Below are positions 7,432 to 27,716 of a stretch of 41,471 nt of DNA, in pieces. The stretch's first letter is position 1, and each line of letters starts with the position of its first letter. This DNA is from Nitrosospira multiformis. Its GTDB lineage: Bacteria > Pseudomonadota > Gammaproteobacteria > Burkholderiales > Nitrosomonadaceae. The DNA is taken from the NCBI RefSeq assembly GCF_003050865.1, contig NZ_QAOK01000026.1, positions 1 through 41,471 of the forward strand, written 5' to 3'. A program made the translations under genes and the position numbers. The notes beneath the pieces were generated by a model. That model had not been told where the DNA came from. It did no database searches and saw only the letters and a list, made by a program, of their open reading frames with translations.

Positions 7432-9537
7432 ATGAAAATCTGGCCAGGCACACCCTACCCCCTGGGTGCGACATACGATGGAGCGGGAACCAATTTCTCC
7501 CTGTTTTCCGAGGCGGCGGAACGCGTCGAACTGTGCCTGTTCGATGAAGCCGGTCGTGAAACCAGGGTGGATTTGCCCGAGGTGACAGGATACTGCTGGC
7601 ACGGCTACCTGCGTGGCGTAGAGCCTGGACAGCGTTATGGTTTTCGTGTGCATGGGCCGTGGGTCCCGGAGCAAGGCAATCGCTGCAATCCAGTGAAGCT
7701 GCTGCTCGATCCGTATGCAAAAGGGATCGATGGCGACGTTACCTGGGATGAAGCTGTATTCCCCTATCTTTTCGATGACCCCGATGCACGGAATGACAAG
7801 GATAGTGCGCCTTTCATGCCCCGCAGTATCGTTCATCAACCGTTTTTCGATTGGTCCGGCGATCGTCAACTCCAGCGTCCCTGGCACGAAACAGTCATTT
7901 ATGAGTTGCATGTCAAGGGCTTCACGGCACAACATCCGGACATACCCCCTGAACTGCGGGGCACTTATGCGGGTCTCGCACACTCCGCCTCCATCGAGTA
8001 TCTGAAACAGCTTGGGGTCACTGCTGTCGAGCTGCTTCCAGTGCACTACTTTGTGCAGGACAAACATCTCCTGGATCAGGGTTTGCGCAACTACTGGGGT
8101 TATAACTCCATTGCCTATTTTGCTCCCCATAGCGCCTACGCCGCAGACAAGCGTCCGGGGGCCGCGAGTGCCGAATTCAAGCAAATGGTCAAGGCTCTGC
8201 ATCAAGCCGACATAGAGGTTATCCTCGATGTGGTGTACAACCACACTGCGGAAGGCAACGATCTCGGGCCGGTGTTATGCCTGAAGGGAATCGACAACGC
8301 CTATTATTACCAGCTTATGGAGGATAGGCGTTACTACAGGGATTACACAGGCACAGGCAACTGCCTCAATATGAGGCAGCCGCATGTGCTGCAACTGATC
8401 ATGGATTCGCTTCGCTATTGGGTGCTGGAAATGCACGTCGATGGCTTCCGCTTCGATCTTGCATCCGCGCTCGCACGCGAACTGCATGAAGTGCAAATGC
8501 TGAATGCATTTTTCAACATTATCCAGCAGGATCCTGTTACAAATCAGGTCAAGCTGATCGCGGAACCCTGGGACCTGGGAGAAGGCGGTTACCAGGTGGG
8601 GAAATTCCCATCAGGCTGGTCTGAATGGAACGGCAAGTACCGGGATTGTATTCGCAATTTCTGGCGCACTCAGGAACCCACTTTAAGTGAATTCGCTTAT
8701 CGCTTTACCGGAAGCTCAGACCTTTACGAGGGGAATTCGCGTCATCCTTTTGCAAGCATCAATTTTGTCACCTCGCACGATGGTTTCACGCTGCGTGATC
8801 TGGTGTCTTACAACGAAAAACACAACCTCTCCAACGGCGAGGACAACAGGGACGGCACAGACGACAACCGTTCCTGGAATTGCGGTGTCGAGGGCCCTAC
8901 GGATGACACGGAAGTGCTTACGCTTCGCGCCCGGCAGCAGCGCAATTTCCTGGCCACCCTGATATTGTCACAGGGTGTGCCCATGTTGCTCGCAGGGGAT
9001 GAATCGGGTCGCACCCAGCAGGGAAACAATAATGCGTACTGCCAGGACAATGAAATTTCCTGGGTGGATTGGGGGAAGGTGGAGACCGGTCTACAGGAAT
9101 TCACCAGACGCCTCGTTCGCTTCCGTCATGATCACCCGGTCTTCCGCCGGCGACGGTGGTTTCAGGGACAACCCATCCACGGCGGGGGTCAGGACGATAT
9201 TGCGTGGTTCAATTACATGGGAGAACAGGCGAGCGAGGAATTATGGGGGAATGGGGGAATTCAAAGCCTGGGAATTTTTCTCAACGGAGACAGTTTCCCG
9301 AATCCCAATGCTCGAGGGGAGCCGGTGAAGGATGACAGCTTCTACCTGATTTTCAACGCGCATTTCGAGCCGATCGATTTCGTTCTGCCCCCGAACCATT
9401 GGGGGCTACGCTGGTTGAAAATACTCGACACCAACGAGGGCTGGGTAGAGAATGCAGCAGATAAGCGGGGGCTCGAAGCTGGATCCGCTTTGTCAGTCGC
9501 ACCCCGGTCACTGGTGCTTTTGCAGCGGCAGGCGTGA
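7432..9537 (+). CDS. glgX: Glycogen debranching enzyme GlgX (isoamylase type)
   Basis: The 701-residue enzyme hydrolyses alpha-1,6 branches of glycogen or limit dextrins, releasing linear maltodextrins. An N-terminal CBM48 domain (PLGATYDGAGTNFSLFS) is followed by a GH13 barrel. Catalytic residues are D342 (VDGFRFDLAS), E378 (LIAEPWDLG) and D450 (VTSHDGFTL). The EGGYQVGKFPSGWSEWNG motif is typical of GlgX/TreX. Length is normal. It converges on the MalQ-TreY gene with a 41-bp spacer and no obvious terminator. Its products are the substrates of the MalQ, TreY and TreZ activities encoded on the other strand. Confidence 0.96.
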   Translation: MKIWPGTPYPLGATYDGAGTNFSLFSEAAERVELCLFDEAGRETRVDLPEVTGYCWHGYLRGVEPGQRYGFRVHGPWVPEQGNRCNPVKLLLDPYAKGIDGDVTWDEAVFPYLFDDPDARNDKDSAPFMPRSIVHQPFFDWSGDRQLQRPWHETVIYELHVKGFTAQHPDIPPELRGTYAGLAHSASIEYLKQLGVTAVELLPVHYFVQDKHLLDQGLRNYWGYNSIAYFAPHSAYAADKRPGAASAEFKQMVKALHQADIEVILDVVYNHTAEGNDLGPVLCLKGIDNAYYYQLMEDRRYYRDYTGTGNCLNMRQPHVLQLIMDSLRYWVLEMHVDGFRFDLASALARELHEVQMLNAFFNIIQQDPVTNQVKLIAEPWDLGEGGYQVGKFPSGWSEWNGKYRDCIRNFWRTQEPTLSEFAYRFTGSSDLYEGNSRHPFASINFVTSHDGFTLRDLVSYNEKHNLSNGEDNRDGTDDNRSWNCGVEGPTDDTEVLTLRARQQRNFLATLILSQGVPMLLAGDESGRTQQGNNNAYCQDNEISWVDWGKVETGLQEFTRRLVRFRHDHPVFRRRRWFQGQPIHGGGQDDIAWFNYMGEQASEELWGNGGIQSLGIFLNGDSFPNPNARGEPVKDDSFYLIFNAHFEPIDFVLPPNHWGLRWLKILDTNEGWVENAADKRGLEAGSALSVAPRSLVLLQRQA

Positions 9538-9578: not shown

Positions 9579-12500
9579 TCAGCCAGTTGTCTGCTCGAAA
9601 GGGGATAGCAACGCATAAGGAAACGTCCCGAAAAGGTGAGCCAGCTCAAACCTCCTGCACGCCTCCCCCGTCCTCTGCACGGCAAGGATCTCGCCCGTCA
9701 ACACATTGATCCACTTCTCACGCAACTCGTCTGAAGGCAGTTCCACGCAGGTGTCGGTCCAGATGGATTTACCGACTGGGAACCTGTGTTGCTCTCCGAT
9801 GAGCCTGCCGAGCAATCGCGGTACAGCAACGACAATAATTTCATTTTCCCGACGCCGTGCAAACACGCATACATGGTCGCTACAATCCCCATGCGCTTTT
9901 AGCGGCAGGTAGTCTCCCTCGCGGAAAAGCTGTTCGTGCTCGCGGCGGAATGTAAGCGCTTTCCAGGTCAGATAGAGCTTGATCCCACCGTCCCGCAGGT
10001 TCTCCATCAGATGCTGGGTGCATGCGCCAGGGCCTTCTTCAGCATGCATCGAGCGGATAGCCTGCAAGGATCTGCGACGACCCGTGTAGTTCACAGGACG
10101 CCTGTTGTCCGGATCCACGAGGCTGAAATCCCAGGTTTCATTGCCCTGGTAGATGTCCGGTACTCCTGGTGACGTAAGTTTGAGTAGCACTTGTGACAAG
10201 CTATTGAAGGCGCCCGCCCATGCAACCCCCTGCTGGAAAGGCAAAAAATCGCGCAGGAACAGATTGGTGGGCTGCTCAGAGAGAAGTGCATGCACGAAGT
10301 CCTGCATTGCTGCCTCATATTCGCTATCAGGGTTGATCCAGGAGCTGCTCACCTTTGCTTCTCGCGCGGCCTTGCGCATATAGGCAACTACGCGGTCGGA
10401 CAGCGCTGCCAATTCCTCGCCGTGCGGTATGTCGAAAGGCCATATGCCCAGCAATATCTGGTATAGCAGGTACTCATCATTCCGGCTCGGCGCATAAATG
10501 TTGCCCAACTCCCGGCGGCTGCTGCGATTGAGCCTGTGCCATCGTTTAAGAGCCCGTGCCCACTGATCGGGTATTTCGGAGAGAACACTTATGCGCGCCC
10601 GTACATCTTCCGACCGCTTGCTGTCGTGACTTGAAGTGGACAGCATGGCATGCGGCCAATGGCTCGCTCGCTCCTGATTTTCCCGGTGAAAGGCTGCGAG
10701 CGACACGCCGAACCGTTGCGGCTCGTTGCCGACCTCGTTGAGCGATACCAGACGGTTATACTGGTAGAAGGTCGTGTCCTCCATTGCCTTGGCCATTACC
10801 GGGCTGGTGTACTGTTGAAACTTCATGGCGAAGGCACATATGGCGTTTTTGTATGCTTCGCTTTGACCCCTGGCGTGCCGACCCAGCAACACCTCCCGCA
10901 CGAAATCGAAGATAGTGGTGTCAACTGCCTGGCTGCGCTTCTTGGCTACCTCAACCGCCCAGTCGACGTAGCGGACATCATCAGCGGAACTTTCGCAATT
11001 GGATACATAAGTACGATAGACAGGAAAGTTGGCGACAACCTGGGCGAGAGCACTGCGCTGGCTGTTGAAGGTAAAATCGCACGTGCGGCGATCACCTTTG
11101 GCAATACGTGCCAATTGTATAGCCAGCACCTGAAGCTCACCTACCAGCGCGCTTTCCATGATCAAGTGTTTGTTCGTTCGTATCATTGCGCCGAGATCCA
11201 AACGTGTCCGAATAAAGCGCTCATAAATACGGGTGAAATGGTCGGCAGCGCCAGTGTCGACAAAAAGGCCGGAGCAAACCCCGGCAAAGTTGTATCCGGT
11301 AGTGCCGTGGATGGGCCAGCTCTTCGGAAGATGTTCATGGGAGGCGAGTATTTTCTCCGCCACGATGTAGAGCGGCTTGGCTCCCTCCTTCATCGTTCCC
11401 GGAAACAATGCTGCGGCGGCCATTGCCTGCAGACGCTCGAAGTATTCCTTGGGCGCGTACAAGCCATCCGGATGATCGATGCGTAAGCCGCTCACATACC
11501 CGCGCGCGATCAGTTCGCGAACCAGGTGGTGCGTGCTTTCGAACACTTCCGAGTTGTCCATGCGCAGCGCCGCCAGATCGTTGATATCGAAGAAGCGGCG
11601 GTAATTGATCTCGTCCGCCGCAGCGCGCCAGAAAGCCAGGCGATAGGCTTGGACGTCCAGCAGTTCATGTAGCAGATCGAAATTCCTGGGTTGCTCCGGT
11701 GCATCACCGTTGAATATGGTGATATTTTCCTGGACGAACTGGGCAATATCGGCGCTCTTCACGTACAGTGAAGCCAGATGGCGCTTGTGTATCTCCTTGT
11801 CGCGCGCTCGTTCGGTGATCGCATCGGGGGAAACGCGGTCGCGCAGTGGCAGATGGTTAAACGCCGTGACCAGGGACTGGAGTTCCAGAAACTCCGGGTG
11901 CTGCTCCCCCAGTCGCATCTCAAGCCGTCTCAGATCGTGACCAAGAATACGGGGATATTCACGCGGGTCTACAGGAAACCGGTGCTCATGATAAAAAACA
12001 CTGAAGGAGCCTTGTTCGGTGTCGAACGCGAGTTTGAGCTCGCCGTTCTCCAGAATCGTGCCATAGTGATCGCCTAGAACAGGTAGCAGCACCTGGCCCG
12101 GCAGGTGCTCTCCCATCACATACCAGTCAATGTCAAAATAGCTGGCAAAGCGGGACGCCGGACCATTTTCCAGTACATCCAGCCACCATTGGTTATCAGC
12201 GCCAGTGATGCACATGTGATTGGGCACCACATCCATGATCTGGCTCATTCCATGACGTTTCAAGGCAGCAGCAAACCGTTCGAAGTCCCGGGCGCTCGTG
12301 ATCTCCGGATTGAGCCTGCCATGGTCGGTTACGTCATAGCCATGGGCGCTGTCAGGGCGCGCTTTGAGGAGAGGCGAAAGATAGCAATGACTGATACCCA
12401 GCTCATCCAGGTACGGGACCAGTTCCGTTGCCTGCCTCAGATTGAAGTCCCGATTCAATTGCAAGCGGTAAGTTGCCCGTGGAATCTGCGCTTGTACATC

Positions 12501-14762
12501 CTGCGCAACCTCACCCTCTGAGGAGGTGGACGCTTGCGATAAGGGACGCTCCCGGCGCAATGCCAGCATTATCCCATGCAGCCAGGCGCTTCCCTGCCAC
12601 TCCTCCAGATTGAGGGGCAGTTTGAGACGCCAGGAGGGGTAAGCGCCTCCTGGCGCACCGGGCAGATTCGGTTGCTCAAGGACCCCGAAGCCATCTTCGA
12701 GTTGCAGCAGCAGAAGTTTCGACGGTGCACGGGCCAGATAGGTGTACACTGCTGCCGCGAGTTCCGCCGTCATTTCCGGGAAGCCGACCTGATGAAGCCC
12801 GCCTCTCGACGGCAATACGCCTTCACTCTCCAATGCCACCAGAAGCTGTGCGCGGTCAGCCGCGCGCTCCACGATTTGCCTGTTCCGCATCTCATCCTCG
12901 GGAAACAGATTGTGACGGTCGCGCAAATCAATATCGAGTCCCTGCCAGAATCCCGCCAGGGTCGGAAGGTCGTGGGTTGTTACTGCCACTACGGCATTTG
13001 CCGGGTACTCCTGCGGCGACTTCAACTGCCCGTCGTGGCGCCGCTCGAAATATAACAATCGTGTGGACATCACGTTTGCGGGATGCAAAGCTTCGCGTAC
13101 TTCCGGTGGTACTGTCCCTAAATCTTCACCTACCACCAGGCAGCGGTTGCGCTGGCTCTCCAGTGCCAGAATGCTCAGCATATCTTCAAAGGGATAGCGT
13201 ATATACGCGCCCTCCGTTGCGGGCAGCCCGCGCACGACCCAGAACAGGCGGCGCAGGCCCATTACGTGATCTATGCGCAGCGAGCCACTGTCCCGCATGT
13301 TGGCGCGCAGAACTTCAATGAAAGGTGCATAAGCGGATGCAGTGAGCTGATGAGGAATCCAGGGCGGCAGGCCCCAGTTCTGCCCCAGGCGGTTGAAGTC
13401 ATCGGGTGGCGCCCCTGCACTGGCTTCAAGTGCGTAAAGTTCACGGCGGGACCACGTTGCCCCACCACCTTCCGCTACGCCGATCGCCAGATCGAACATT
13501 AAACCAATGTTGAGACCCACTTCCCATGAGCGTGTGCCGACCGCTCCCAGTTGCAGGGAAACCTGCCACTGAAGGTATTCGAAATATTCTACATGATCGA
13601 GATGGGCCTCGCAGAATGCAGCTACCTCCGGAGCTGCAGGATCACGGTATGCCTCGGGCCATACGCGCCACCCCCATACAGAGCTGTCCCCTGCCCGAAA
13701 ATATTCCTGAAGCGCCTCGAACAGCGCCTGCTTGCGAAGAATTTCGCCGTGCTCTGCCTGGAAAGCACGAAAAGCACGCGCACGACCAGTATTTTGCGCC
13801 AGATGGGTACTACGGAAATGCCGGTACAGGCAGACGAGGACTTCCGATTTCGCCTCCGCAACACTTCTATAATCCACCTGTTCGGTAGCACGAAGCGCAC
13901 GCAGCCGCGCCTGGAATTCCGGCGCGAGCACTATGGAGCGTGCTTCCTCGCATCCCGCAAATTCGGGTATGGCTTCCACATCCAGGTAAAGCGGGTTGAA
14001 CCAGGTGCGGCTGGAGGGACTGTAGGGACTGGTGTGTTCCGGAGCATCGGGAAATAACGCATGAAGCGGGTTGAGCAGCAGCGTGCTTCCCCCCGCACTG
14101 GCATAGAATTCGACTAGGCGCCGAAGATCGCTGAAATCCCCGATGCCATAATTGCGCTGGGAACGAATACCATATAACTGGAGGGCGGGACCCCACACCC
14201 GCCTCTCACCTTCGATACCTGGCGGCCAATAACAAATGGCAGGAGCCACAATAAACGGCATTTCAGCCAGAGCGAGGCCATCGCTCTTTTCGATGGAAAG
14301 CCGGTGGTACCCTGGTTCCACAGGGAGATCCAGCACCAGAATTCGCCGCACGAATTCCTGGGCGCCGGGATCATCGAAACTGCCGGGAGAGGTGAAGCGA
14401 TAACGCTCGACCTCTTCCAGGCCGTCAGGAATAAATTCGTCGTGGTCTTCGGCCCCGGATTCCCTGTACAAGCGCCAGCGATGGGTCCCCTTGCCCTCGG
14501 CGGCCGGTAGCGAGACTGCAATGCGATAGGGTCGCATCCACTCCCGCACCACTTGTACGGGCGGCAGCACATGCTCCCATTTGCGCCTTATAAAAGTATG
14601 CAGGGACGCTGAAATTTCCTCTTCCGTGGCCGTTGCAACCCCCATTGCCCCGAGTAGAGCGCGCTTTGCGTCCTCCGAAGTGTGGCGGGTATTTCCCCAG
14701 ATATCGCTGTAGCAGGGGAGCACGCCATATAATTCGCACAGCTGGTCAAGCGGATTGCTCAT
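9579..14762 (-). CDS. malQ-treY: Fused 4-alpha-glucanotransferase / malto-oligosyltrehalose synthase (MalQ-TreY)
   Basis: One unbroken frame of 1727 residues joins two GH enzymes. Residues 1 to about 735 are MalQ (GH77), which transfers alpha-1,4-glucan chains; its catalytic residues are D498 (SLRIDHVMG), E546 (VVGEDLGTVPPEV) and D598 (TTHDLPTLAGFW). After a low-complexity linker (SQASTSSEGEVAQDVQ, about 742-757), residues ~760-1727 are TreY (GH13), which turns the reducing end of a maltodextrin into a trehalosyl unit; D1096 (GLRIDHPDGL) and E1136 (YIVAEKILA) are its nucleophile and acid/base, and TSSHDSKRSEDVRARI is the third site. Both halves are full length, so both should be active. The start has GGGAGAAG 2 bp upstream. 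It is the last gene of the treS-treZ-malQ/treY operon, 54 bp after treZ. Confidence 0.95.
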   Translation of the reverse strand: MSNPLDQLCELYGVLPCYSDIWGNTRHTSEDAKRALLGAMGVATATEEEISASLHTFIRRKWEHVLPPVQVVREWMRPYRIAVSLPAAEGKGTHRWRLYRESGAEDHDEFIPDGLEEVERYRFTSPGSFDDPGAQEFVRRILVLDLPVEPGYHRLSIEKSDGLALAEMPFIVAPAICYWPPGIEGERRVWGPALQLYGIRSQRNYGIGDFSDLRRLVEFYASAGGSTLLLNPLHALFPDAPEHTSPYSPSSRTWFNPLYLDVEAIPEFAGCEEARSIVLAPEFQARLRALRATEQVDYRSVAEAKSEVLVCLYRHFRSTHLAQNTGRARAFRAFQAEHGEILRKQALFEALQEYFRAGDSSVWGWRVWPEAYRDPAAPEVAAFCEAHLDHVEYFEYLQWQVSLQLGAVGTRSWEVGLNIGLMFDLAIGVAEGGGATWSRRELYALEASAGAPPDDFNRLGQNWGLPPWIPHQLTASAYAPFIEVLRANMRDSGSLRIDHVMGLRRLFWVVRGLPATEGAYIRYPFEDMLSILALESQRNRCLVVGEDLGTVPPEVREALHPANVMSTRLLYFERRHDGQLKSPQEYPANAVVAVTTHDLPTLAGFWQGLDIDLRDRHNLFPEDEMRNRQIVERAADRAQLLVALESEGVLPSRGGLHQVGFPEMTAELAAAVYTYLARAPSKLLLLQLEDGFGVLEQPNLPGAPGGAYPSWRLKLPLNLEEWQGSAWLHGIMLALRRERPLSQASTSSEGEVAQDVQAQIPRATYRLQLNRDFNLRQATELVPYLDELGISHCYLSPLLKARPDSAHGYDVTDHGRLNPEITSARDFERFAAALKRHGMSQIMDVVPNHMCITGADNQWWLDVLENGPASRFASYFDIDWYVMGEHLPGQVLLPVLGDHYGTILENGELKLAFDTEQGSFSVFYHEHRFPVDPREYPRILGHDLRRLEMRLGEQHPEFLELQSLVTAFNHLPLRDRVSPDAITERARDKEIHKRHLASLYVKSADIAQFVQENITIFNGDAPEQPRNFDLLHELLDVQAYRLAFWRAAADEINYRRFFDINDLAALRMDNSEVFESTHHLVRELIARGYVSGLRIDHPDGLYAPKEYFERLQAMAAAALFPGTMKEGAKPLYIVAEKILASHEHLPKSWPIHGTTGYNFAGVCSGLFVDTGAADHFTRIYERFIRTRLDLGAMIRTNKHLIMESALVGELQVLAIQLARIAKGDRRTCDFTFNSQRSALAQVVANFPVYRTYVSNCESSADDVRYVDWAVEVAKKRSQAVDTTIFDFVREVLLGRHARGQSEAYKNAICAFAMKFQQYTSPVMAKAMEDTTFYQYNRLVSLNEVGNEPQRFGVSLAAFHRENQERASHWPHAMLSTSSHDSKRSEDVRARISVLSEIPDQWARALKRWHRLNRSSRRELGNIYAPSRNDEYLLYQILLGIWPFDIPHGEELAALSDRVVAYMRKAAREAKVSSSWINPDSEYEAAMQDFVHALLSEQPTNLFLRDFLPFQQGVAWAGAFNSLSQVLLKLTSPGVPDIYQGNETWDFSLVDPDNRRPVNYTGRRRSLQAIRSMHAEEGPGACTQHLMENLRDGGIKLYLTWKALTFRREHEQLFREGDYLPLKAHGDCSDHVCVFARRRENEIIVVAVPRLLGRLIGEQHRFPVGKSIWTDTCVELPSDELREKWINVLTGEILAVQRTGEACRRFELAHLFGTFPYALLSPFEQTTG

Positions 14763-14816: not shown

Positions 14817-16772
14817 TTACCAGGTAAAACTGCTTTTACTTTTATCGGCAACCGATTCGAGCATCCAAACTACCGAACGAGGCGCCAGGATACTTTTCGG
14901 CAGGATACTTTTCGGCAGGGTACTTTTCGGCAGGGTACTTTTCGCCAGGGTACTTTTCGTTGCGCGGGGAGATATTGGTATTGCACCTGGGGATGCAAAC
15001 ACGATCTGCCCGGCAGACTCGGGAGCCGCCACGCTCGCATCGGAAAAGTTCGCCAATAGGCGTAAAGTGGAATTGTCCCCCAATTGCCAGCAGACCCGCA
15101 GGCACTCGGACGCGAATACCTCAAAATGAGCCGAATTACCCTTCATTCCGCGAAGACGCGGCACGATAATTTCCCTACGAAGTTTCATCAGGCTGCGGTA
15201 ATACTCCAGCCAGACAAGGTGCGCTTCATCGTTGAGTGAATCCCAGTCGATTTTCGAGATAAGAAAAGTCTGAACAGCATTCGGATCAGGTATTGCTGTC
15301 TCGGCCATGCCTTGCCCAAAATGCGCAAAGCGGGAGAATTCCCTGCGTCGGCCCTGCGTCACGGCTTCGCGCAGATCCCCTCCGAAGTCGCAAAAAAACA
15401 GGAAAGGCGATTTTGCGGCAAATTCCTCGCCCATGAACAGCATGGGAATGCTGGGCGCCAATAAATAGATGGCTGCCACCGCGCGTATCAACGCGTCTTC
15501 CCCAATATGGGAAATACGCTCGCCGAACGCACGGTTGCCTGCCTGATCATGGGATTGCAGAAAGGAAATGAAAGCCTGGGGCGGCAGATGAATGCTCGCC
15601 TCTCCACGCGCCGTATCATCGCGATAAGCGGATATCTCTCCCTGATAGGCAAATCCTTCCGTCAGGCAGCGTCCGAGGTGACGTACCGGGTTGTCGGCAT
15701 AGTCCGTATAGTATCCATCGTTCTCCTGCGTGGAGAGCACATGCAGGGCGTGATGAATATCGTCATTCCACTGGGCGTCGTACCAGCCGTTTTTCAGGTA
15801 ACGAGCATTGTTGGCATCGTTTTCCAGGATCAGGTGCACGTGGCGCTCTGCATCGACCTCAGCACGTACACGCTCCGCGATCTCGATAAGGATGTGCGGG
15901 CTGGAATGGTCGATGATTGCATGTACCGCATCAAGCCGCAGGCCATCGAAGTGATACTCTTGCAGCCAATACAACGCGTTGTGGATGAAGAAATTGCGTA
16001 CCTCCTGACTTGCGGGGCCGTCGAAATTTATTGCCGCGCCCCATGGAGTGTGATGGCGCTCGGTAAAGAATTCTTTCGCATAAAGGTGAAGATAGTTTCC
16101 TTCCGGCCCGAAGTGATTGTAGACGACATCGAGCAGAACCATGATGCCCCGTTCATGTGCAGCCTGAACCAGTTCCTTAAGATCCTCCGGGCGTCCGTAA
16201 CGGCTATCCGGCGCGTAAAGCAGGACTCCGTCATAGCCCCAGTTTCGCGAACCCGGAAAATCGGCAACCGGCATGAGCTCGATGACGGTCACGCCGAGTT
16301 CGGCCAGATAGTCGAGCCGTTGGGAAACGCCCTTGAAAGTACCTTCGGGTGAGAAGGTGCCTACGTGCAATTCATAAATTACCGCTTCTTCCCATGGTCG
16401 TCCATGCCATTTCGCATCCCGCCAGGCGAAAGCCGAAGGATCGATCACCTCACTTAAACCATGCACATCATCCGGATTGAAGCGCGAAGCGGGATCGGGA
16501 ACGCGGACACCGTTCACGTCAAACCCGTAGCGCATCCCTGCGCCTGCTTCCGCCACAATCGATTCGAACCATCCTCCTGCGCGAGGAGTCATGGGAAGTA
16601 CCAGTTCGTGCTCATTCGTGCGTCCATCGGCAAGGCACAATCCCACCTGCTTGCAACCCGGCGCCCAAAGACGAAAGCTTACTCCGCCATCCGTAATTTG
16701 CGCGCCGTATGGCATCTGATGGGGCATCTCATGAAGCATCTCATGGGGCATCTGATGGATTCTTGTCGGCAC
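14817..16772 (-). CDS. treZ: Malto-oligosyltrehalose trehalohydrolase TreZ
   Basis: The 651-residue GH13 enzyme releases trehalose from the trehalosyl end made by TreY. A CBM48-like N-terminal domain (GVSFRLWAPGCKQVGL) precedes the barrel; catalytic residues are D281 (FDGLRLDAVHAI), E317 (LILENDANNARYL) and D409 (LQSHDQAGNRAFGERI). Two oddities flank this normal core. The N-terminus carries a His/Met-rich tract encoded by four 12-bp repeats (16711-16758), and the last beta domain carries a K-S-[T/I]-L-[P/A] tract encoded by five 15-bp repeats (14887-14961), inserted just before the conserved RSVVWML strand. The start is GTG with AGGGGAAG 4 bp upstream. It lies 21 bp after treS and 54 bp before malQ-treY, so all three are one operon. 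Confidence 0.95.
   Translation of the reverse strand: MPTRIHQMPHEMLHEMPHQMPYGAQITDGGVSFRLWAPGCKQVGLCLADGRTNEHELVLPMTPRAGGWFESIVAEAGAGMRYGFDVNGVRVPDPASRFNPDDVHGLSEVIDPSAFAWRDAKWHGRPWEEAVIYELHVGTFSPEGTFKGVSQRLDYLAELGVTVIELMPVADFPGSRNWGYDGVLLYAPDSRYGRPEDLKELVQAAHERGIMVLLDVVYNHFGPEGNYLHLYAKEFFTERHHTPWGAAINFDGPASQEVRNFFIHNALYWLQEYHFDGLRLDAVHAIIDHSSPHILIEIAERVRAEVDAERHVHLILENDANNARYLKNGWYDAQWNDDIHHALHVLSTQENDGYYTDYADNPVRHLGRCLTEGFAYQGEISAYRDDTARGEASIHLPPQAFISFLQSHDQAGNRAFGERISHIGEDALIRAVAAIYLLAPSIPMLFMGEEFAAKSPFLFFCDFGGDLREAVTQGRRREFSRFAHFGQGMAETAIPDPNAVQTFLISKIDWDSLNDEAHLVWLEYYRSLMKLRREIIVPRLRGMKGNSAHFEVFASECLRVCWQLGDNSTLRLLANFSDASVAAPESAGQIVFASPGAIPISPRATKSTLAKSTLPKSTLPKSILPKSILAPRSVVWMLESVADKSKSSFTW
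14887..14961. repeat. Five 15-bp tandem repeats inside treZ (3' part)
   Basis: The unit on the + strand is agg(a/g)tacttttcggc, in five near-identical copies. Being a multiple of 3, it keeps the treZ frame and encodes K-S-[T/I]-L-[P/A] five times. Copy number could change without breaking the gene. Confidence 0.95.
16711..16758. repeat. Four 12-bp tandem repeats inside treZ (5' part)
   Basis: The unit ggcatct(g/c)atgg occurs four times on the + strand with few differences. It encodes H-[E/Q]-M-[P/L] repeats in the TreZ N-terminus. Confidence 0.9.
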
Positions 16773-16793: not shown

Positions 16794-19700
16794 CTACCTT
16801 CTGCGTTGCAACAATCGCATCAGCCGCTGCATGGTTCCACCGACTGACTTCGATTGTTGCGCGAGTGCGTTACTCACGCTGGCAACAGCTTTTTCCACCA
16901 TGAAAAGTGTAACCAAAGCATCGGCTACTCCGGTATCAGCGGGAAACAGCGAATTTCCCTTCATCGCCCTGCGATAGCTTTTGAGGAAATCGGCGCTGGC
17001 AAGCGTCTGCCACTTATCAGCTTGTTGCGCAAGCATAGCGGTTGATTCCGGATATTCATCCGTCACATGCTCCAGTGCCGCTGCCGCCACCTCGGAAAAC
17101 GAAAACAGCATGCCTGCCACATCGCGGAGAGGACTGTGTTTCCAGCGGCGCTCATGCCATGCGCGTTCGGGGCCGCTGCCGTAATTCGTAATCAGAAAAT
17201 CATTGTTCGAGAGCCACACCTGTCGCAGGCTGTAATCTCCGTGGCAGCGCGCCTTCAAGGCCTCGGGATGTATGGCTGCCACCCGGGTGATACGACGGTA
17301 GAATTTCGGCCGGACTGATAAAAGATCGTTGCCGACGTTACCAATCTCGTGTGCGGAGCTGGGCACATCCGCCCATTTCGCTTCCAGCAATTTGTACATT
17401 TCATCCATCTGCGCGCGCGCGGTGTTCACCCACTCCGCAAGATCTTCGGGGGTAATGGGCTCGACGCCGAAAGCCCCCTCCGCATCATCCTGCGCAAGTG
17501 CCTGGTGAAATTCAGCTGTACGCAATCCCAGCGTATTGATAAGGGTCATGTAGGCAACATGCCGCGCATCAATGGGACGCTTTTGTTGTGTGCGAAACTC
17601 ATCCAGGTAGCGTTGCAGATAGTCCTGCGTATGAGCCCAGCCGCTACCCTGATTCTCGGCATAGTGCTCGAGGATTGCCAGAGTGGAATTGCGTCCCTCG
17701 CCGTCCATGTACTCCACGGTACCCGCCAGTTGAGCCATGTGGGTAAATTTGGCGGTCTCCGTCAGAAAACGCGACATCTCCAACTCGGGGTGCACGCCGG
17801 GAAGAAGCCAACGGTATCCTTTCAGTATCAGGCGGTCGCCCATGTTCACAAACAATCGCCCTCTTTCCGAAACTGTCCGCGTCACCGTTGCTGATGCGCC
17901 TGAAATCACCGGACCGGGAAAAGCACTGGTTGCATGGAAAGACACTTGCCCATGATCAAACACGAGTGCTGAGCCATCATGCATGCTGGAGACTATGGCG
18001 CGACAGAAGCTGTCATCCCAGAATGCGTCGAACAGCAAACCCGTCCGCTCCCGGCGACGAACCTTAGCAAGCGTGGCATGCAGCAGCGTGCTCACAACCC
18101 CTTCATCCTCATCCTCGTCCTCCCACACGAGTGCCAGAGGTACGGCAAAGCGATAAGACTCATCATTGGCCAGCGTTAAAACGACGGTGACCAGCAGCCA
18201 GCTTCCCTGCTCCGTCGACCACTCGTGCATCTCCCCGAGCTCAAATTTTCTGACGGGAAGGTTCCTCATCAAAAACCAGGGTTGGGAATAAAAGAAGCGC
18301 GACATGATCTGCCCCTCGAGCTGCTCGCGGGCACGGCGAGCCATCAGGTCTTTCATGCCCCCGCTACCATCGCCGCGGTTCAACAGTGTGCCCCAACCCG
18401 ACTCCATGAGCACAAGGACAGGCAGATCCGGCGATACCTGCCGCTCCTCATGCCAGGCAGGGGCGGCCACGTCGACTGCCAGGCGAAAAGCATAAAAGCC
18501 ATGAGCGCTCAAGGTAAGGAGATACGGCAGCTCACCCACGGGCGGGAATGCGGTGCGGCCCATCAATTCAACCGGTACCCTTCCTTTGAATTGGCTTAAA
18601 TCCAGTTCTACTGGCTGCGCGACTCGGGACAGATTAGCCACGCATAGAATCGTTTCATCCTCATGCTCACGCAAATAGGCAAGAATCTTGCGATTGCCAG
18701 GCCGCAAAAAACGCAGCGTGCCCCGGCCAAAGGTTCGATGCGCCTTGCGCATCGCAATCAGGCGCTTCATCCAGTTGAGCAGGGATGACGGATTACGGGC
18801 CTGTGAATCCACGTTCACTGCACCAAACCCATATACGGGATCGACGATGGCCGGCAGGAAAAGCTGTTGAGAATCGGCTGTGGAAAACCCGCCGTTAACC
18901 CCCCCTGACCACTGCATGGGTGTGCGCACACCGTTGCGATCACCGAGGAGGAGGTCATCCCCCATGCCGATCTCATCTCCGTAGTAGAGCACGGGCGACC
19001 CGGGCATAGTCATGAGCAGCAGATTCATCAATTCAATTCGGTGGCGGTCATTGTCCATCAGTGGCGCCAGGCGCCGTCGAATACCGAGATGCAGGCGGGC
19101 CTGGGGGTCGATTGCATATGTCTGGTGAAGATAGTCCCGCTCGCGATCGGTGACCATCTCCAATGTCAGTTCGTCGTGGTTGCGCAGAAACACGGCCCAC
19201 TGACAGTTCTCGGGGATGTCTGGTGTCTGCTCCATGATCTCTACAATGGGGTGACGGTCTTCGCGCGCAATAGCCATGTACATTCGCGGCATGAGTGGAA
19301 AATGGAAAGCCATATGGCATTCGTCGCCATCGCCAAAATACTCGCGTACATCCTCCGGCCACTGGTTCGCTTCAGCCAGGAACATCCGGTTGCGGTAGTG
19401 CTTATCCAGTTCGAAACGCATGCGTTTGATCACCGCATGGGTCTCCGGCAGGTTTTCGCAGGTGGTCCCCTCGCGCTCGCACAGATAGGGCATGGCATCC
19501 AGGCGCATGCCATCGACACCCGCATCCAGCCAGAGCCGCATCACATGCATCATGGCGTTAAAGACATGCGGGTTGTCAAAATTCAAGTCCGGTTGATGGA
19601 AAAAAAAGCGGTGCCAGTAATAGGCTTTGGCTATATCATCCCATTCCCAGTTGGATCCCTCTGTGTCCGTGAAAATACTGCGCGCACCGCTGTACCTGGT

Positions 19701-20111
19701 TTTGTCGTCGCTCCATACGTAATAGTCGCGCTTGACGGACCCCGGCGGTGCGCGGCGGGCTGCCTGAAACCAAGGATGCTGATCGGAAGTATGGTTGAGT
19801 ACCAGTTCCGTGATTACGCGCAAACCCCGGCTATGAGCCTCCGCGATAAACCGATGGAAGTCCTCCAAGGTGCCGACATCCGGGTGCACACTGTGGTAAT
19901 CGGAAATATCGTACCCGTCGTCCCTTCCCGGAGACGGATAGAATGGAAGAAGCCAGAGTGTAGTGACGCCCAGTTCCGCCAGATAGTCGAGCTTGGAGAT
20001 CAGGCCCGAAAAATCTCCTATGCCGTCGCCATTGCTGTCGAAGAATGTCTTGACGTGCAATTCATAGATGATGGCGTCCTTGTACCAGAACGGATCTTCT
20101 TCTCGTTCCAT
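16794..20111 (-). CDS. treS: Trehalose synthase fused to a degenerate maltokinase domain (TreS-Mak)
   Basis: The 1105-residue protein starts with a complete TreS (GH13, residues 1 to ~550), which interconverts maltose and trehalose: D205 ([11 protein letters not shown]), E247 ([10 protein letters not shown]) and D313 (FLRNHDELT) are the catalytic residues. Residues ~560-1105 are homologous to maltokinase (Mak/Pep2), which phosphorylates maltose with ATP in the GlgE pathway. The N-lobe lysine motif [10 protein letters not shown] (K764) and the [10 protein letters not shown] block are kept. However, the catalytic loop reads HGDYSLRQ (957-964) where HGDxHLGQ is expected, and the metal-binding DFEGEP reads NYGSGP (976-981). 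The kinase half is therefore probably inactive. It starts 1 bp after the original stop of the SmbP-like gene and is first of the three trehalose genes. Confidence 0.95.
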
Positions 20112-21310: not shown

Positions 21311-22201
21311 TTAAAACCACAGCCGCAGCCCGGCAACGAAGCGAACCTGGGTGGGGTCCCCACCCTCTTCCCGCACAAGATCGGCAGTCTTGAAAAAACT
21401 GTGGTCGTATGAGACCCCAACATAAGGTGCCATCTCGCGCCTGATCTCATAGCGCAGCCGCAAACCCAGTTCGATGTTATTGAGTCCCCGCCCGGTAGTG
21501 AATTTCTCCACTTTTTGAATTGCAGCGTGAGTTTCGAATCGTCCCTGCAGGATCAGCCGCTGCGTCAGCAAAAAATCACGGGATGTCTGGAAACGAGCAG
21601 AAACATCTCCATCCTGGCTGATAAACAGCGCAGACTCCAATTCGTAGCGATAGGGAACGAGACCCTGCAACCCGATGACAGCATGGGCGCGAGCCACGTT
21701 TTCCCCCCTGAAGGTTTGCGTCTCTCCGCGCACGCCCACCTGGAAATCATAATATTTCTTGATGAACCGGCCATACAGAAGCTGCATGTCGATGTCGTAG
21801 TCTGCCTTGAAGGCAGTATTCCGTTCGCCTTCGCTTTTGACCCATAGGCGGTTGAAGTCCCCTCCGTACCAACCCTGCATGTCCCAGCGGAAATCGCTCT
21901 CGTCACTTCTCGGACGGTATTCGAGAACCTCCGCACGAAAGAAAGCATAGTTTTGGTCACTGTGGGTCGGATGGTCGTACTCGCCACCCTCATTCTTCAG
22001 GGACTGATGGAGCAGGATGCGCTTTGCTTCGTCCAGCCTTTCCCTGAGAGGGGTGGGGGGCAAGGAGGAAGCGGCCGGCACGGTGGAAGAGTTTGTCGTG
22101 GGATGGTGCAAGGCTTGCGCACTTGCTGTCGGTGCCCCGGTACCGACCCCCAAGGCTAGGCCCGCAACAATACCAAGGGTAAGTTGCGGAATCTGTCTCA
22201 T
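21311..22201 (-). CDS. copB: Copper resistance outer-membrane protein CopB
   Basis: The 296-residue protein is a CopB/PcoB-type outer-membrane beta-barrel, thought to bind or export copper together with CopA. A signal peptide (GLALGVGTGAPTASAQA) is followed by a short linker, then the family core with DFRWDMQGWYGGDFNRLWVK and YDFQVGVRGE, and a C-terminus ending in phenylalanine (FVAGLRLWF), as outer-membrane barrels do. The N-terminal Met/His-rich region found in many CopB proteins is short here (QALHHPTTNSS). The start overlaps the end of copA by 4 bp (ATGA), so the two are translationally coupled. Confidence 0.93.
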   Translation of the reverse strand: MRQIPQLTLGIVAGLALGVGTGAPTASAQALHHPTTNSSTVPAASSLPPTPLRERLDEAKRILLHQSLKNEGGEYDHPTHSDQNYAFFRAEVLEYRPRSDESDFRWDMQGWYGGDFNRLWVKSEGERNTAFKADYDIDMQLLYGRFIKKYYDFQVGVRGETQTFRGENVARAHAVIGLQGLVPYRYELESALFISQDGDVSARFQTSRDFLLTQRLILQGRFETHAAIQKVEKFTTGRGLNNIELGLRLRYEIRREMAPYVGVSYDHSFFKTADLVREEGGDPTQVRFVAGLRLWF

Positions 22202-24030
22202 GATCCCATCTCGGGAATCGCATTCGAAACCTCAATCACGCGGAACATCCCCGTTTCCATATGCAAGAGCAGGTGGCAATGGAAGGCCCAGGGGCCGGGT
22301 GCATCAGCGGTGATGGCAACGGAGACGCGCTCCGCGGGTTTGACGAGGACGGTGTGCTTGCGCGGAAGGTATTCACCCGCTCCATTTTCCAGATGCATCC
22401 ACATGCCGTGCAGATGCATCGTGTGCTCCATCATCGTATCGTTCACAAAGGTCCAGCGCAGCCGTTCTCCATAACGGAAGCGGATCGGCTCTCTAGCATC
22501 GGAATATTTTTTGCCATCGAACGACCACATGAAGCGTTCCATATGTCCGGTGAGATGAATCTCGAGCTCACGCTCCGGCTCGCGCTGGTCAGGATAGGGC
22601 CTGAGGCTCTTCAAATCGGTATAGACCAGTACTCGGCGGCCATCGCCGCCCAGCCCGATACCCGGATCATCCAGACGGCTCTGAGTGAAATCCGGAACCG
22701 ACTGATTGCCGGTGCCATGATCGTCTGGCCCATGCTTGACCGGTTTACTGCCCAGGATTTCGAGTCTGCCATGCATATCATGCCTGTCCTGGATGCCTTC
22801 CCCCGCACGGTCCCCATGCATGTCATGCTGCATCCTTGTCTCCGGCTCACCCGTGGTTGCATTACCAGGGTTATGGTCGCTATGGTCCATGCCGTTCATA
22901 TGCTGCATGCCCATGTCCGCCATGCTACGAACCGGATGCCGGCGTTGCGGCGGAATCTCCGCGCTCATCCCGGGACGGGGAGCGAGCGTGCCACGCGCAA
23001 AGCCGCTTCGATCCAGCGTTTCCGCAAAAATCGTATAAGCGCGGTCCTCTTTTGGTTCGACGGTCACATCGTAGGTTTCCGCAGGTCCCATGCGGAATTC
23101 ATCCACTTCGACAGGTTGGACGTTCTGGCCATCGGCTTGCACTACCGTCATCTTGAGCCCGGGGATGCGCACGTCCTGGAAGGTCATGACACCTACCTGA
23201 ATGAAGCGCAAGCGTATGCGTTCCCCCGGACGAAAAAGCCCTGTCCAGTTTTCTGCCGGTGCAAGCCCATTCATGAGGTAGGTGTAGGCATGGCTGGTTA
23301 TGTCCGCCAAGTCCGTCGGGTCCATTCGCATCTGCGCCCACATCAGGTAATTGTCGAGTGTCGCGAGCCAGCCCTTCCGCATCCCGTCCCTGATAAAATC
23401 GCTTAGTGTGCGTTTCTGGAAGTTGAAATAGCCCGGCTGCTTCTTGAGCTTTCCGATCATTGAGCCGACTGAAGAAAAGCTCCAGTCCGAGAGCATGATC
23501 ACGTATTCGCGGTCGTACCGGACGGGGTCGGGCTCGGCTGGATCAATGATTATCGAGCCGTACGCGCCTGCTTGCTCCTGGCCTCCAGAATGGCTGTGAA
23601 ACCAGTAAGTGCCGTACTGCTTGACGGTGAAGCGGTAACGGAAGGTTGTTCCTGGCTCGATGCCCGGGAAGCTCACCCCCGGCACCCCATCCATCCCGGG
23701 TGGCAAAAGTATGCCGTGCCAATGTATCGAAGAGGTCTCCGGCAGGCGGTTGGTGACATTAAGGGTGATGTCCTGTCCTTCCCGCAGGCGAAGCAGCGGT
23801 CCCGGGACCGTGCCGTTGATCGTTATCGCGGTTGTGACGCGCTCCCCAACGTGAAACGGCGTCTCTGCGATAGTGAGGTCGATTACGTCCCCGCTCAGCT
23901 GGGTAGTTGGAGCAACAGCGTTTATCCAACTTCCTCGGGCATAAACTGGCAGAATCCAATCCAGAGCAAATAGTGCTCCCAATGCCCCTGATCCTTTCAG
24001 GAAGTGGCGTCTTGAAATTGAGCCTTTCAT
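22198..24030 (-). CDS. copA: Copper resistance multicopper oxidase CopA (Tat-exported)
   Basis: The 610-residue periplasmic multicopper oxidase would oxidise Cu(I) and sequester copper. A Tat signal (SRRHFLKGSG, RR at 7-8) exports it folded. Copper ligands are visible: HWH 103-105, HSH 145-147, HTMHLHGMWMH in the C-terminal domain and HCHLLLHMETGM (H584-C585-H586, H590, M595) for the type 1 and type 2/3 sites. Between domains 2 and 3 is a Met/His/Asp-rich stretch (MGMQHMNGMDHSDHNPG and more), expected to bind extra copper in PcoA/CopA proteins. It lies 40 bp after small lipoprotein B and overlaps copB by 4 bp, so the order lipoprotein-copA-copB is an operon. Confidence 0.95.
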   Translation of the reverse strand: MKGSISRRHFLKGSGALGALFALDWILPVYARGSWINAVAPTTQLSGDVIDLTIAETPFHVGERVTTAITINGTVPGPLLRLREGQDITLNVTNRLPETSSIHWHGILLPPGMDGVPGVSFPGIEPGTTFRYRFTVKQYGTYWFHSHSGGQEQAGAYGSIIIDPAEPDPVRYDREYVIMLSDWSFSSVGSMIGKLKKQPGYFNFQKRTLSDFIRDGMRKGWLATLDNYLMWAQMRMDPTDLADITSHAYTYLMNGLAPAENWTGLFRPGERIRLRFIQVGVMTFQDVRIPGLKMTVVQADGQNVQPVEVDEFRMGPAETYDVTVEPKEDRAYTIFAETLDRSGFARGTLAPRPGMSAEIPPQRRHPVRSMADMGMQHMNGMDHSDHNPGNATTGEPETRMQHDMHGDRAGEGIQDRHDMHGRLEILGSKPVKHGPDDHGTGNQSVPDFTQSRLDDPGIGLGGDGRRVLVYTDLKSLRPYPDQREPERELEIHLTGHMERFMWSFDGKKYSDAREPIRFRYGERLRWTFVNDTMMEHTMHLHGMWMHLENGAGEYLPRKHTVLVKPAERVSVAITADAPGPWAFHCHLLLHMETGMFRVIEVSNAIPEMGS

Positions 24031-24070
24031 TCGGAATTGGCCTTCTCCAACCGCTTTCTTCGGCTGCGGA

Positions 24071-24424
24071 TTACTGCCTGGTGTCGGCGGCCATCTTGCG
24101 GTGAATTTCAGCCATGGCTGTATTTGCTTCGACAGCTTGCTGGTAAATGTTGATCAAACGATGGCAATGCGCCTTGAGGTCTTGAGCACGCTTGCCATAA
24201 TAAGGATGTGTTTCATATTCCCCGAGTTCTTTTTTATGCTCCTTCACCTTTACGCGCGCTTCATCGGCCGCCGCTTCATAATGCCTGGCTAACGCATTGT
24301 GGTCCGCAGGGGTTTTAGCTTCCCGAATCGCGGTTGTCATATCCATTGGGTGGGGATTCAATTGGGCGCAGGAACTGACTAAGCCCAGCATAGCCAAGGC
24401 TACGAAAAATACCGATGTTTTCAT
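24071..24424 (-). CDS. Small helical lipoprotein, paralog B
   Basis: This 117-residue lipoprotein (signal ending LVSSCAQ) is the closest relative of paralog A at 6993-7346: NPHPMDMTTAIREAKT, DHNALARHYEAAADEA, YETHPYYGKRAQDLKAH and IHRKMAADTRQ align along the whole length without gaps of note. It has a strong GGAGG ribosome binding site 6 bp upstream. It is directly upstream of copA (40 bp), which places it in the copper operon. It could be a periplasmic metal-binding or envelope-stress protein, but no experiment known to me defines the family. The remnant copy at 20601-20939 keeps the CHCRLI-like HCQRLI segment closest to this copy. Confidence 0.8.
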   Translation of the reverse strand: MKTSVFFVALAMLGLVSSCAQLNPHPMDMTTAIREAKTPADHNALARHYEAAADEARVKVKEHKKELGEYETHPYYGKRAQDLKAHCHRLINIYQQAVEANTAMAEIHRKMAADTRQ

Positions 24425-24533
24425 GATTTACCTCCTTCAGTTGGGTTTAAAAAAATAAACTACTCCTGTTCACTGGCCTCTCCCTTTGGCCTGATCCCTC
24501 CGCAATCCATCGACGAAAAGCCCAATGTCATCG

Positions 24534-24545
24534 GCAAATATTTGC
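24534..24545. promoter_or_regulatory. Perfect 12-bp palindrome upstream of lipoprotein B-copA-copB
   Basis: GCAAATATTTGC lies in the 147-bp gap between cusA and lipoprotein B, about 110 bp before the latter's start. It could be an operator of the cop operon. No match to a known copper-regulator box is claimed. Confidence 0.3.
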
Positions 24546-24571
24546 TCTGATTGCTTCCTTTTTTAGCATCA

Positions 24572-27500
24572 TTATGGCCTCTCAGTTTTAAGTGAGCGCC
24601 GGATTGGAACTTCCTTGACCAGAGCGAAGACGGCCGGAAATACGACCAGCGTCAGTACTGTAGTGGAAACCATTCCGCCCACCATGGGAGTGGCTATATG
24701 CCGTGTCACCTCGGATCCCGTGCCTGTGCTGAACATGACGGGAAGCAGCCCGACCACGCTTCCAGCGATGGTCATCATCACCGGACGTATGCGGTATACC
24801 GCACCCTGGATCACTGCCTCGTAAAGATCTTCAACGGTAACTTTTTCGCCTGGGGCTTGTTGCGTCGCCGTGATACTCGCTAACGCCCGATCAAGGAAAG
24901 TGAGCATGACCATTCCTGTTTCAGTCGCGATACCGATGAGCCCGATAAAGCCAACCGCCGCTGCGATGCTCATGTTGTAGCCGAGCAGATACATGAGCCA
25001 GATGCCGCCGACCAAGGAAAAAGGAACCGAAAGCATGACGATCAGCGTCTCGGTGAGTCGATGAAAGTTCAGATATACAAGCAAGAATACGATCAGGACC
25101 GTGAGCGGCACGACTACCTTCAGTTTTTCGACCGCACGTTCCATGTATTCGAACTGGCCACTCCAGGTTGCATAATACCCCGGCGGAAACCGCACCTGCT
25201 CACGTACTGCCTGCTGGGCTTCCGCGACATAGCTGCCGATGTCGCGGTCGCGGATATCGACGAAGATGTAAGCCGACAGCAGCGCGTTCTCCGTGCGGAT
25301 ACTCGGCGGGCCTTGGAGGAGTTTCACCTGCGCAAGTTGCCCGAGCGGGATCATTGCCTGGTCCATGGTGGGTATCAGCACCTGGGTAGGGATTGCCTGG
25401 GGATCACTGCGCAATGCACGTGGATAGCGCACGGTGACAGCGAAGCGTTCCCGTCCTTCCACGGTGGTGGTTACCGTTTCGCCACCCAGCGCCACCGAGA
25501 TTACGTCCAGCAAGTCTCCTACGACCAGCCCATGGCGCGCGAGCGCCATGCGGTCCGGCTCGATATCGAGGTAATAGCCGCCAGTAATGCGTTCCGCATA
25601 GACACTCGTCGTTCCAGGCACCGTTTTTACCGTTGTCTCGATTTGTCGGGCAAGGATTTCGATTTCCTCCAGATCCTTGCCGAACACTTTGACGCCAATG
25701 GGCGTGCGTATGCCTGTGGCAAGCATGTCGATCCGGTTCTTGATCGGCATGGTCCAGGCATTGCTGACCCCGGGCATCTGGAGCGCCCGGTCCATTTCAG
25801 CGATCAATTTATCCACGGTCATCCCGGAGCGCCATTCAGCCTCCGGTTTCAGGTTAATGATGGTTTCAGCCATCTCCAGCGGCGCCGGGTCGGTTGCAGT
25901 ATTGGCCCGCCCCGCTTTGCCGAGCACTGATGCCACCTCCGGAAAGCTTTTAATGATCCTGTCCTGCGTCTGCAATATCTCAGCCGCTTTCGTCACGGAA
26001 ATGCCCGGCAAGGTCACTGGCATGTAAAGAAGTGTGCCTTCGTTCAATGTCGGCATGAATTCAGTGCCCAGCTTGAGTGCGGGATAAACGGTTATCCCAA
26101 GCACAGCAAGCGCTGCCAGAATGAGTGTCTTTTTCCAATGCATCACCCGGCCCACTACCGGATGATAGGCTCGGATCATGAAACGGCTCAGTGAATTATC
26201 CTGCTCCCGCGGAATGCGGCCACGGATCAGAAGCAGGATCAAGGCTGGAACCAGGGTGATCGAAAGCAAGGCGGCACCCGCCATGGCGAAAGTCTTGGTA
26301 TAGGCCAGTGGCTGAAACATGCGCCCTTCCTGCGCTTCAAGAGTAAATACAGGCAGAAACGATACCGTGATGATCAACAGGCTGAAGAACAGCGATGGAC
26401 CAACTTCCTTACAGGCATCAATGACGGCCTCTTTGCGTACTGCACCTGAAACTTCCGGGCCAACGCGCGCAAGATGTTTGTGTGCATTCTCGATCATGAC
26501 GATCGCCGCATCGGTCATTTCCGCAATCGCTAGAGCGATGCCCGCAAGGCTCATGATATTGGAATTGATGCCGAGGAACCGCATTGCGATGAAAGCGATG
26601 AGTACGCCGATGGGAAGCATGATGATCGCCACCAGGGCGCTCCGCACATGCATGAGGAAGACCGCGCAAACCAGCGCCACAATAATGATCTGCTCGATCA
26701 ACACTTCACGCAGCGTCGTGATGGCGCGGTGGATCAGATCCGAACGATCGTAGAGGGACCGGATTGAAACACCTTCCGGCAGGGCCGGCATGATCTCGGC
26801 GAGCTTCTTTTCGAGATTGCGTGTGATATCGAGAGCATGTTCGCCATGCCGCGCCACCGCAATACCCGAAACAGCTTCTCCTTCGCCGTCAAGCTCGGCT
26901 ATGCCGCGACGTTCCTCAGGAACCAATTCCACCCGGGCAATGTCGCGCAACAGCACCGGCGTGCCCTTCTCCGCCTTGACGACGAGTTTTTCGAGATCGT
27001 CTATCCCGCGCAGATAGCCTTTGCCGCGCACCACATATTCTCTCTCCGCGAGCTCGATCACACGCCCTCCCACATCGCGATTGCTGGCAGCGATAACCTG
27101 AGACACATTCTTTAACGGGATGCCGTAAGCCTGTAGCTGCTGCGGATTCACTGTAACCTGATAGCTTCTTACAAACCCGCCTACGCTGGCTACTTCCGCC
27201 ACGCCCTCCGCCGCGGTTAGTTGATAACGCAAGAACCAGTCCTGGATGGCACGCAACTCATCGAGGGTACGATTCCTTGCGGTCACGACATATTGATAAA
27301 CCCAACCTACTCCGGTGGCGTCCGGACCAAGTGAAGGCTTTATATTCCTGGGCAGGCGAGCAGCAGCAAAACTCAAGTATTCCAATATGCGCGAGCGTGC
27401 CCAATAGATGTCTGTGCCATCCTCGAAGATGACGTATACGAACGACACGCCAAAACTGGAGAGACCACGCACTACCCTGGATTTCGGCACACTCAGCATG

Positions 27501-27715: not shown

Positions 27716-27716
27716 C

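Follow-up and report, generated by a model that had tools for sequence, protein, structure and literature searches.

A trehalose synthase fusion of Nitrosospira multiformis with a maltokinase domain that has very likely lost its activity

The stretch of DNA analyzed here (the window: 41,471 nucleotides of contig NZ_QAOK01000026.1, assembly GCF_003050865.1 of Nitrosospira multiformis, an ammonia oxidiser of soil) carries a gene in which trehalose synthase (TreS) is fused to a maltokinase (Mak) domain with an altered active site. This raises the question of whether the kinase half still works and, if not, why it is still there. We consider it probable that this half is a true pseudokinase fused to a working TreS, that GlgE was lost and the kinase active site decayed, and that the domain was kept as an integral part of the fold or oligomer.

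Active-site residues of the maltokinase half

The fusion and the sites discussed below are as follows; the sites were placed by alignment.

16794..20111, minus strand: TreS-Mak fusion gene, 1105 aa, open reading frame (ORF) open throughout
18474..20111, minus strand: TreS half (GH13 trehalose synthase), residues 1-546, by TIGR02456 and alignment to solved TreS
16845..18353, minus strand: pseudo-maltokinase half, about residues 587-1089, by TIGR02457
17853..17867, minus strand: P-loop, residues 749-753, ERGRL replacing EQSNT
17820..17822, minus strand: K764, the ATP-phosphate lysine, retained
17220..17243, minus strand: catalytic loop HGDYSLRQ, residues 957-964, D959 and Q964 kept, H961 and G963 lost
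17169..17186, minus strand: NYGSGP, residues 976-981, replacing the Mg-binding DFEGEP
16833..16892, minus strand: C-terminal maltose-pocket segment, residues 1074-1093, K1074 kept, Y1077 replaced by A and Y1081 by N

The TreS half scored 910.6 bits with the NCBIfam model TIGR02456 (TreS, cut-off 678.35), which identifies it as an N-terminal GH13 equivalog, and its alignment to solved TreS enzymes is full-length and takes in the GH13 catalytic blocks. Because its RNHDE block and a further block (15 protein letters not shown) match those enzymes in the alignment, this half is expected to be active. The C-terminal domain is a maltokinase homologue along its whole length, as in the TreS-Mak family; it matched TIGR02457 (TreS_Cterm, 'putative maltokinase') over residues 587-1088 with 322.7 bits, under the cut-off of 375.05 for that model.

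A first-pass annotation of this DNA had reported HGDYSLRQ at residues 957-964 and NYGSGP at 976-981, between bases 17170 and 17250, with K764 and another flanking block (10 protein letters not shown) conserved in an open frame. All of these were present in the ORF as described. Its claim that the active site had decayed holds for the Mg-binding Asp, now N976, and for both Glu of DFEGEP (E978 and E980). The decay extends further, to the P-loop Ser and Asn (S136 to G751 and N137 to R752, in M. vanbaalenii numbering) and to the maltose-pocket tyrosines Tyr416 and Tyr420, whose equivalents are A1077 and N1081, but D959, the catalytic base of HGD, and Q964, the Mg-ligand Gln, remain. The losses identified by alignment to 4u94 thus include Ser136, Asn137, Asp322, Tyr416 and Tyr420 of M. 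vanbaalenii Mak. R611, R1003, Y1007 and the C-terminal YE..YE..R..W..P segment are also gone, the latter with E1078, E1082, R1086, W1089 and P1093, which are all fixed in intact copies. Columns were taken as fixed when at least 95% identical among 65 copies that came from GlgE-positive genomes and had both catalytic Asp. Asp at 976 was present in 65/65 of these by the definition of intact; the Phe and Glu next to it in DFE, which lie outside that definition, were likewise found in 65/65, and both are lost in the window.

Published mutants are available for several of these sites (PMC4306142). Replacement of the Asp322 equivalent by Asn in M. tuberculosis Mak is reported to abolish activity completely, and mutation of Tyr416, Tyr420 or Lys413 in the mycobacterial enzyme to abolish it practically; a mutant of the Asn137 equivalent was inactive and one of the Ser136 equivalent drastically reduced. 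Since mutants at the sites lost here have no or little activity, the kinase of the window protein is very likely dead.

The loss is shared by a clade of relatives

The first-pass annotation had proposed an alignment with relatives. The gene was found in 18 of the 23 searched genomes of the genus, isolates as well as metagenome-assembled genomes (MAGs), and Asp976 was replaced in all 18 copies, by N in 17 and by H in one. Ten further copies with N976 came from Thiobacillus, Hydrogenophilales, Rhodocyclaceae and other records, and eight of these ten also have HGN for HGD. Together the 28 copies form one starred clade on the Mak tree; the loss at 976 therefore predates the split of these genes. 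GlgE was not detected in the genomes of 26 of them, and the other two (G302 and G830) have another intact Mak.

Clade members outside Nitrosospira are at 50-57% identity, and both length and open frame are maintained across the clade. The ratio of nonsynonymous to synonymous substitution rates (dN/dS) of dead Mak domains was similar to that of intact kinases, and TreS dN/dS was 0.03-0.20 in 13 pairs of dead-Mak fusions. Structure prediction suggests that the fold is kept in the window copy. The domain accordingly has the marks of a pseudokinase: a predicted kinase fold, lost catalytic residues and continued purifying selection.

Within the clade, catalytic residues, sugar-site residues and the pocket segment drift. 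Of the 56 columns fixed in intact copies, 29 still have that residue fixed here. New residues have become fixed at six positions: G751, W966, N976, Y977, G978 and A1082. Among all 43 copies without D959 or D976, K764 is retained in 41, and Q964 is retained in 34/34 rows of the three main dead groups.

A separate dead lineage was observed within the window's family, in six genomes of genus code g3 (L074, L079, L070, L071, L075 and L031). These copies have HGN or HGH and keep DFEGDP and the P-loop Asn, so that decay began elsewhere in the active site. Another genome of g3, G056, has GlgE and an intact Mak.

Association of the kinase state with GlgE

The window genome (G000, 99.54% complete) gave no match to the GlgE N-terminal domain PF11896, a search that was positive in its control genome. 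A GlgE protein search of the same genome, run with no positive control, also gave no match. A separate active Mak elsewhere in the genome was rejected, TIGR02457 matching the window fusion alone. The genome has a glgB-like gene on contig C13, so named on the strength of its sequence and its match to glgE neighbours; C4 carries another GH13 gene. The first-pass annotation, which had suggested searching for glgE and a separate Mak, held that TreS output would be kept from the GlgE pathway. This point changes: with no GlgE and no second Mak found, the pathway is absent rather than starved.

To compare this with other bacteria, 113 Mak copies from 107 genomes were aligned. These genomes comprised 36 from a search of 121 relatives, 41 from an order sample (53 of 399 genomes had Mak, 12 being already in the set), 21 from a class sample (21 added out of 22 with Mak among 369) and nine behind named contigs. 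Eleven loci repeating genomes already in the set were dropped, and small second fragments in G183 and G832 were left out. GlgE presence was scored by a PF11896 search in every genome of the set; among the 121 relatives, nine were positive. Two definitions of an intact Mak were used. The first requires both catalytic Asp. The second requires four key sites, adding both maltose-pocket tyrosines, which were included after the exceptions G091 and G096 had been seen; a gap at a site is scored as intact, affecting G666 and G129 (intact) and G832 and G822 (dead at other sites).

By the first definition, all 63 GlgE-positive genomes had an intact Mak and 39 of the 44 GlgE-negative genomes had none. 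By the second, at least one intact Mak was found in 63/63 GlgE-positive genomes, and only dead copies in 41/44 GlgE-negative ones. The genomes G091 (L078) and G096 (L157) keep the catalytic Asp, have no GlgE that we could find and have lost both maltose-pocket Tyr; they may show decay at an early stage, starting with the sugar site. G238 and G486, with intact Mak and no GlgE, are drafts in which the end of the contig cuts treS-mak off towards the expected position of glgE. In four genomes (G104, G148, G302 and G830) the dead fusion sits on one contig, and GlgE shares another contig with a second, intact Mak; this second Mak is an intact fusion in G830 and, in the other three genomes, an open frame of 533-589 aa. 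It was also observed that L119 (G309) and L123 (G338) each have two intact TreS-Mak fusions near each other on one contig.

Number of changes of state and tests of dependence on GlgE

The Mak tree was a quick IQ-TREE run with motif columns omitted and support by the Shimodaira-Hasegawa-like approximate likelihood ratio test (SH-aLRT); it has several long rows, chiefly G822 and G440. Parsimony on this tree required at least seven changes between intact and dead under the first definition and at least nine under the second. The lineages differ in the residues hit: position 976 has changed to N, H or G, position 959 to N, H or Q, or the pocket alone is affected.

Two-trait Markov models favoured dependence between Mak state and GlgE. 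With GlgE counted anywhere in the genome the likelihood ratio (LR) was 29.0 under the first definition and 38.7 under the second; with the four dead copies of G104, G148, G302 and G830 recoded as having no GlgE partner it was 35.3 and 45.2, respectively, all on a gene tree, which can overstate significance. The fitted rate of kinase loss was zero with GlgE present, some fitted rates being at their bounds.

Genes around the fusion

Other genes of glucan and trehalose metabolism lie beside the fusion:

14817..16772, minus strand: treZ, the next gene downstream of treS-mak
9579..14762, minus strand: malQ-treY fusion of the PRK14507 type, one 1727-aa protein
7432..9537, plus strand: glgX debranching enzyme

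The MalQ-TreY protein is a likely sink or source of the maltose handled by TreS. The window also contains a copper cluster at 21311-29354 (CopB, a CopA-type multicopper oxidase, a CusA/CzcA-type pump and a CusB-like adaptor); the C-terminus of the adaptor (462-518) matches CusF.

Proposed reasons for the retention of the domain and the probable death of the kinase

The events probably ran as follows. An ancestor would have lost GlgE, the user of maltose-1-phosphate. As this compound then had no use and is reported to be toxic in some bacteria, the active site of the kinase would have decayed at the maltose pocket, the metal site and the P-loop, and in part of the lineages also at the catalytic base, while the remainder of the domain stayed under ordinary purifying selection. 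TreS would then interconvert only trehalose and maltose, the latter being exchanged via the neighbouring MalQ-TreY and TreZ. The dead domain most likely stays as an integral part of the fold and oligomer, docked on the TreS beta-sandwich as in mycobacterial TreS:Pep2, whose structure is reported to have Pep2 on TreS, including the beta-sandwich, mainly via the Pep2 C-terminal lobe (PMC6509496); TreS would then need it for folding, stability or quaternary structure. Consistent with such a need, the Mak domain was found in 36/36 relatives with TreS over the cut-off, in one frame in 35 and on two contigs in G101. Toxicity as the driver is plausible but unproven, and simple loss of use would serve equally. 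Maltose-1-phosphate is described as killing M. tuberculosis upon removal of GlgE (PMC4526890), and when one E. coli strain yielded no colonies with a TreS-Mak plasmid, the authors suspected maltose-1-phosphate (PMC7935935).

Several observations weigh against this explanation. In G392, where glgB adjoins treS-mak and glgE was not detected, Mak looks intact, so the loss of GlgE does not by itself inactivate the kinase immediately. Because the four GlgE-positive loci laid out (L080, L081, L082 and L155) have the order glgB-glgE-treS-mak, G392 looks like a recent loss of glgE. The independent-pairs sign test, more cautious than the Markov models, did not reach significance with the first definition (median p 0.125 from 5 starred pairs); with the second the median p was 0.031 from 7 pairs, and on average no pair was in the opposite direction. 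One of 22 TreS in the class sample, that of G629, has no Mak domain. It is a free-standing protein of 579 aa (G629:C32:8029-9633), its family code is shared with G484, whose fusion is dead, and G629 had no Mak and, by a protein search with no positive control, no GlgE. It is a possible end point of the decay series; with the domain kept in all 36 relatives and absent here, the domain can therefore be lost but seldom is. P. aeruginosa without GlgA and GlgE and given otsA/otsB is reported to have maltose-1-phosphate raised about 2-fold and to be still assayable alive (PMC8084333), therefore toxicity is not universal. No enzyme assay of a Nitrosospira copy turned up in a literature search, residual nucleotide binding by the Mak half is possible with D959, Q964 and K764 kept, and its structural or assembly role is one that we infer.

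The retained nucleotide-site residues could instead mean that the domain is a regulatory pseudokinase, which binds a nucleotide or phosphosugar without catalysis and tunes TreS activity. The persistence of K764 and Q964 in the dead copies fits this, as do the six new residues fixed in the window's clade and the elements that the ATP site and the TreS interface are reported to share in the mycobacterial complex (PMC6509496). However, the domain lacks the P-loop Ser and Asn and the pocket tyrosines, its pocket segment drifts, and a few fixed new residues are unremarkable where 159/539 columns of the clade reach 95% fixation or more anyway. We regard such regulation as unlikely, and slightly more so its extended form, in which kinase death follows GlgE loss recurrently and predictably and each dead domain became an obligate regulatory subunit of TreS, sensing nucleotide or energy state via the retained Lys/Gln site and setting the trehalose-maltose balance. 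The first-pass annotation had proposed a pseudokinase kept for structure or regulation; a kept pseudokinase is strongly supported by the clade, the GlgE pattern, the Asp-to-Asn assay and dN/dS, and the loss of the maltose-pocket tyrosines favours a role in structure or assembly over maltose sensing.

Passive decay, with an unneeded domain on its way out and retained only by being in frame with TreS, would account for the drift of catalytic and sugar-site residues and for the TreS of G629. It is improbable given that dN/dS of dead domains resembles that of intact ones, that 29/56 intact-fixed columns are unchanged and that length and open frame persist across Nitrosospira, Thiobacillus, Hydrogenophilales and Rhodocyclaceae, with the window copy retaining the predicted fold. 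The protein-kinase-like fold also hosts other chemistries, and with D959, Q964 and K764 kept in Nitrosospira copies the kinase might still be active, other residues replacing the metal ligand or another substrate being used. We give this very little weight: M. tuberculosis Mak was inactive after Asp-to-Asn at the same site (PMC4306142), the catalytic base is also gone in relatives within the clade (HGN), and the pocket tyrosines are missing. A sequencing or assembly error in the window is refuted by the replacement of Asp976 in 18/18 gene-bearing genomes of the genus, isolates and MAGs alike; nothing was found in its favour, and its probability is negligible.

Relation to known systems and significance

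The closest known counterparts are P. aeruginosa PA2152 and the bifunctional TreS-Mak (TreS/Pep2) of Estrella lausannensis, which have the same domain order with TreS and maltokinase fused. These are reported as assayed, active kinases from GlgE-pathway bacteria (PMC8084333, PMC7935935), whereas the window copy is without the kinase residues and GlgE was not found. Mycobacterial Mak/Pep2 (4u94, 4o7o, 5jy7) is a separate protein with EQSNT, DFEGEP and Tyr416/Tyr420, all lost in the window, and glucosamine kinase (6hwj, 6hwk, 6hwl) was solved as a free-standing kinase with another substrate. Foldseek/VIA matches include many other kinases of the same fold, indicating kinship by fold only. Literature searches returned nothing on maltokinase together with pseudokinase, Nitrosospira or ammonia-oxidizing, and no mention of dead Mak copies was seen in those papers from wider searches that were looked into; the GlgE-pathway survey of Chandra et al. 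2011 may mention degenerate ones.

Proteins of this kind can be annotated as bifunctional TreS/maltokinase, which suggests that these nitrifiers have a GlgE pathway when they have none; the motifs, together with the lack of glgE, put this right. The contribution of the Mak domain to TreS apart from catalysis becomes testable. More broadly, these genes form a natural series in which a metabolic kinase repeatedly turned into a pseudokinase, with a clear correlate, the absence of the next enzyme, and with close intact relatives as controls.
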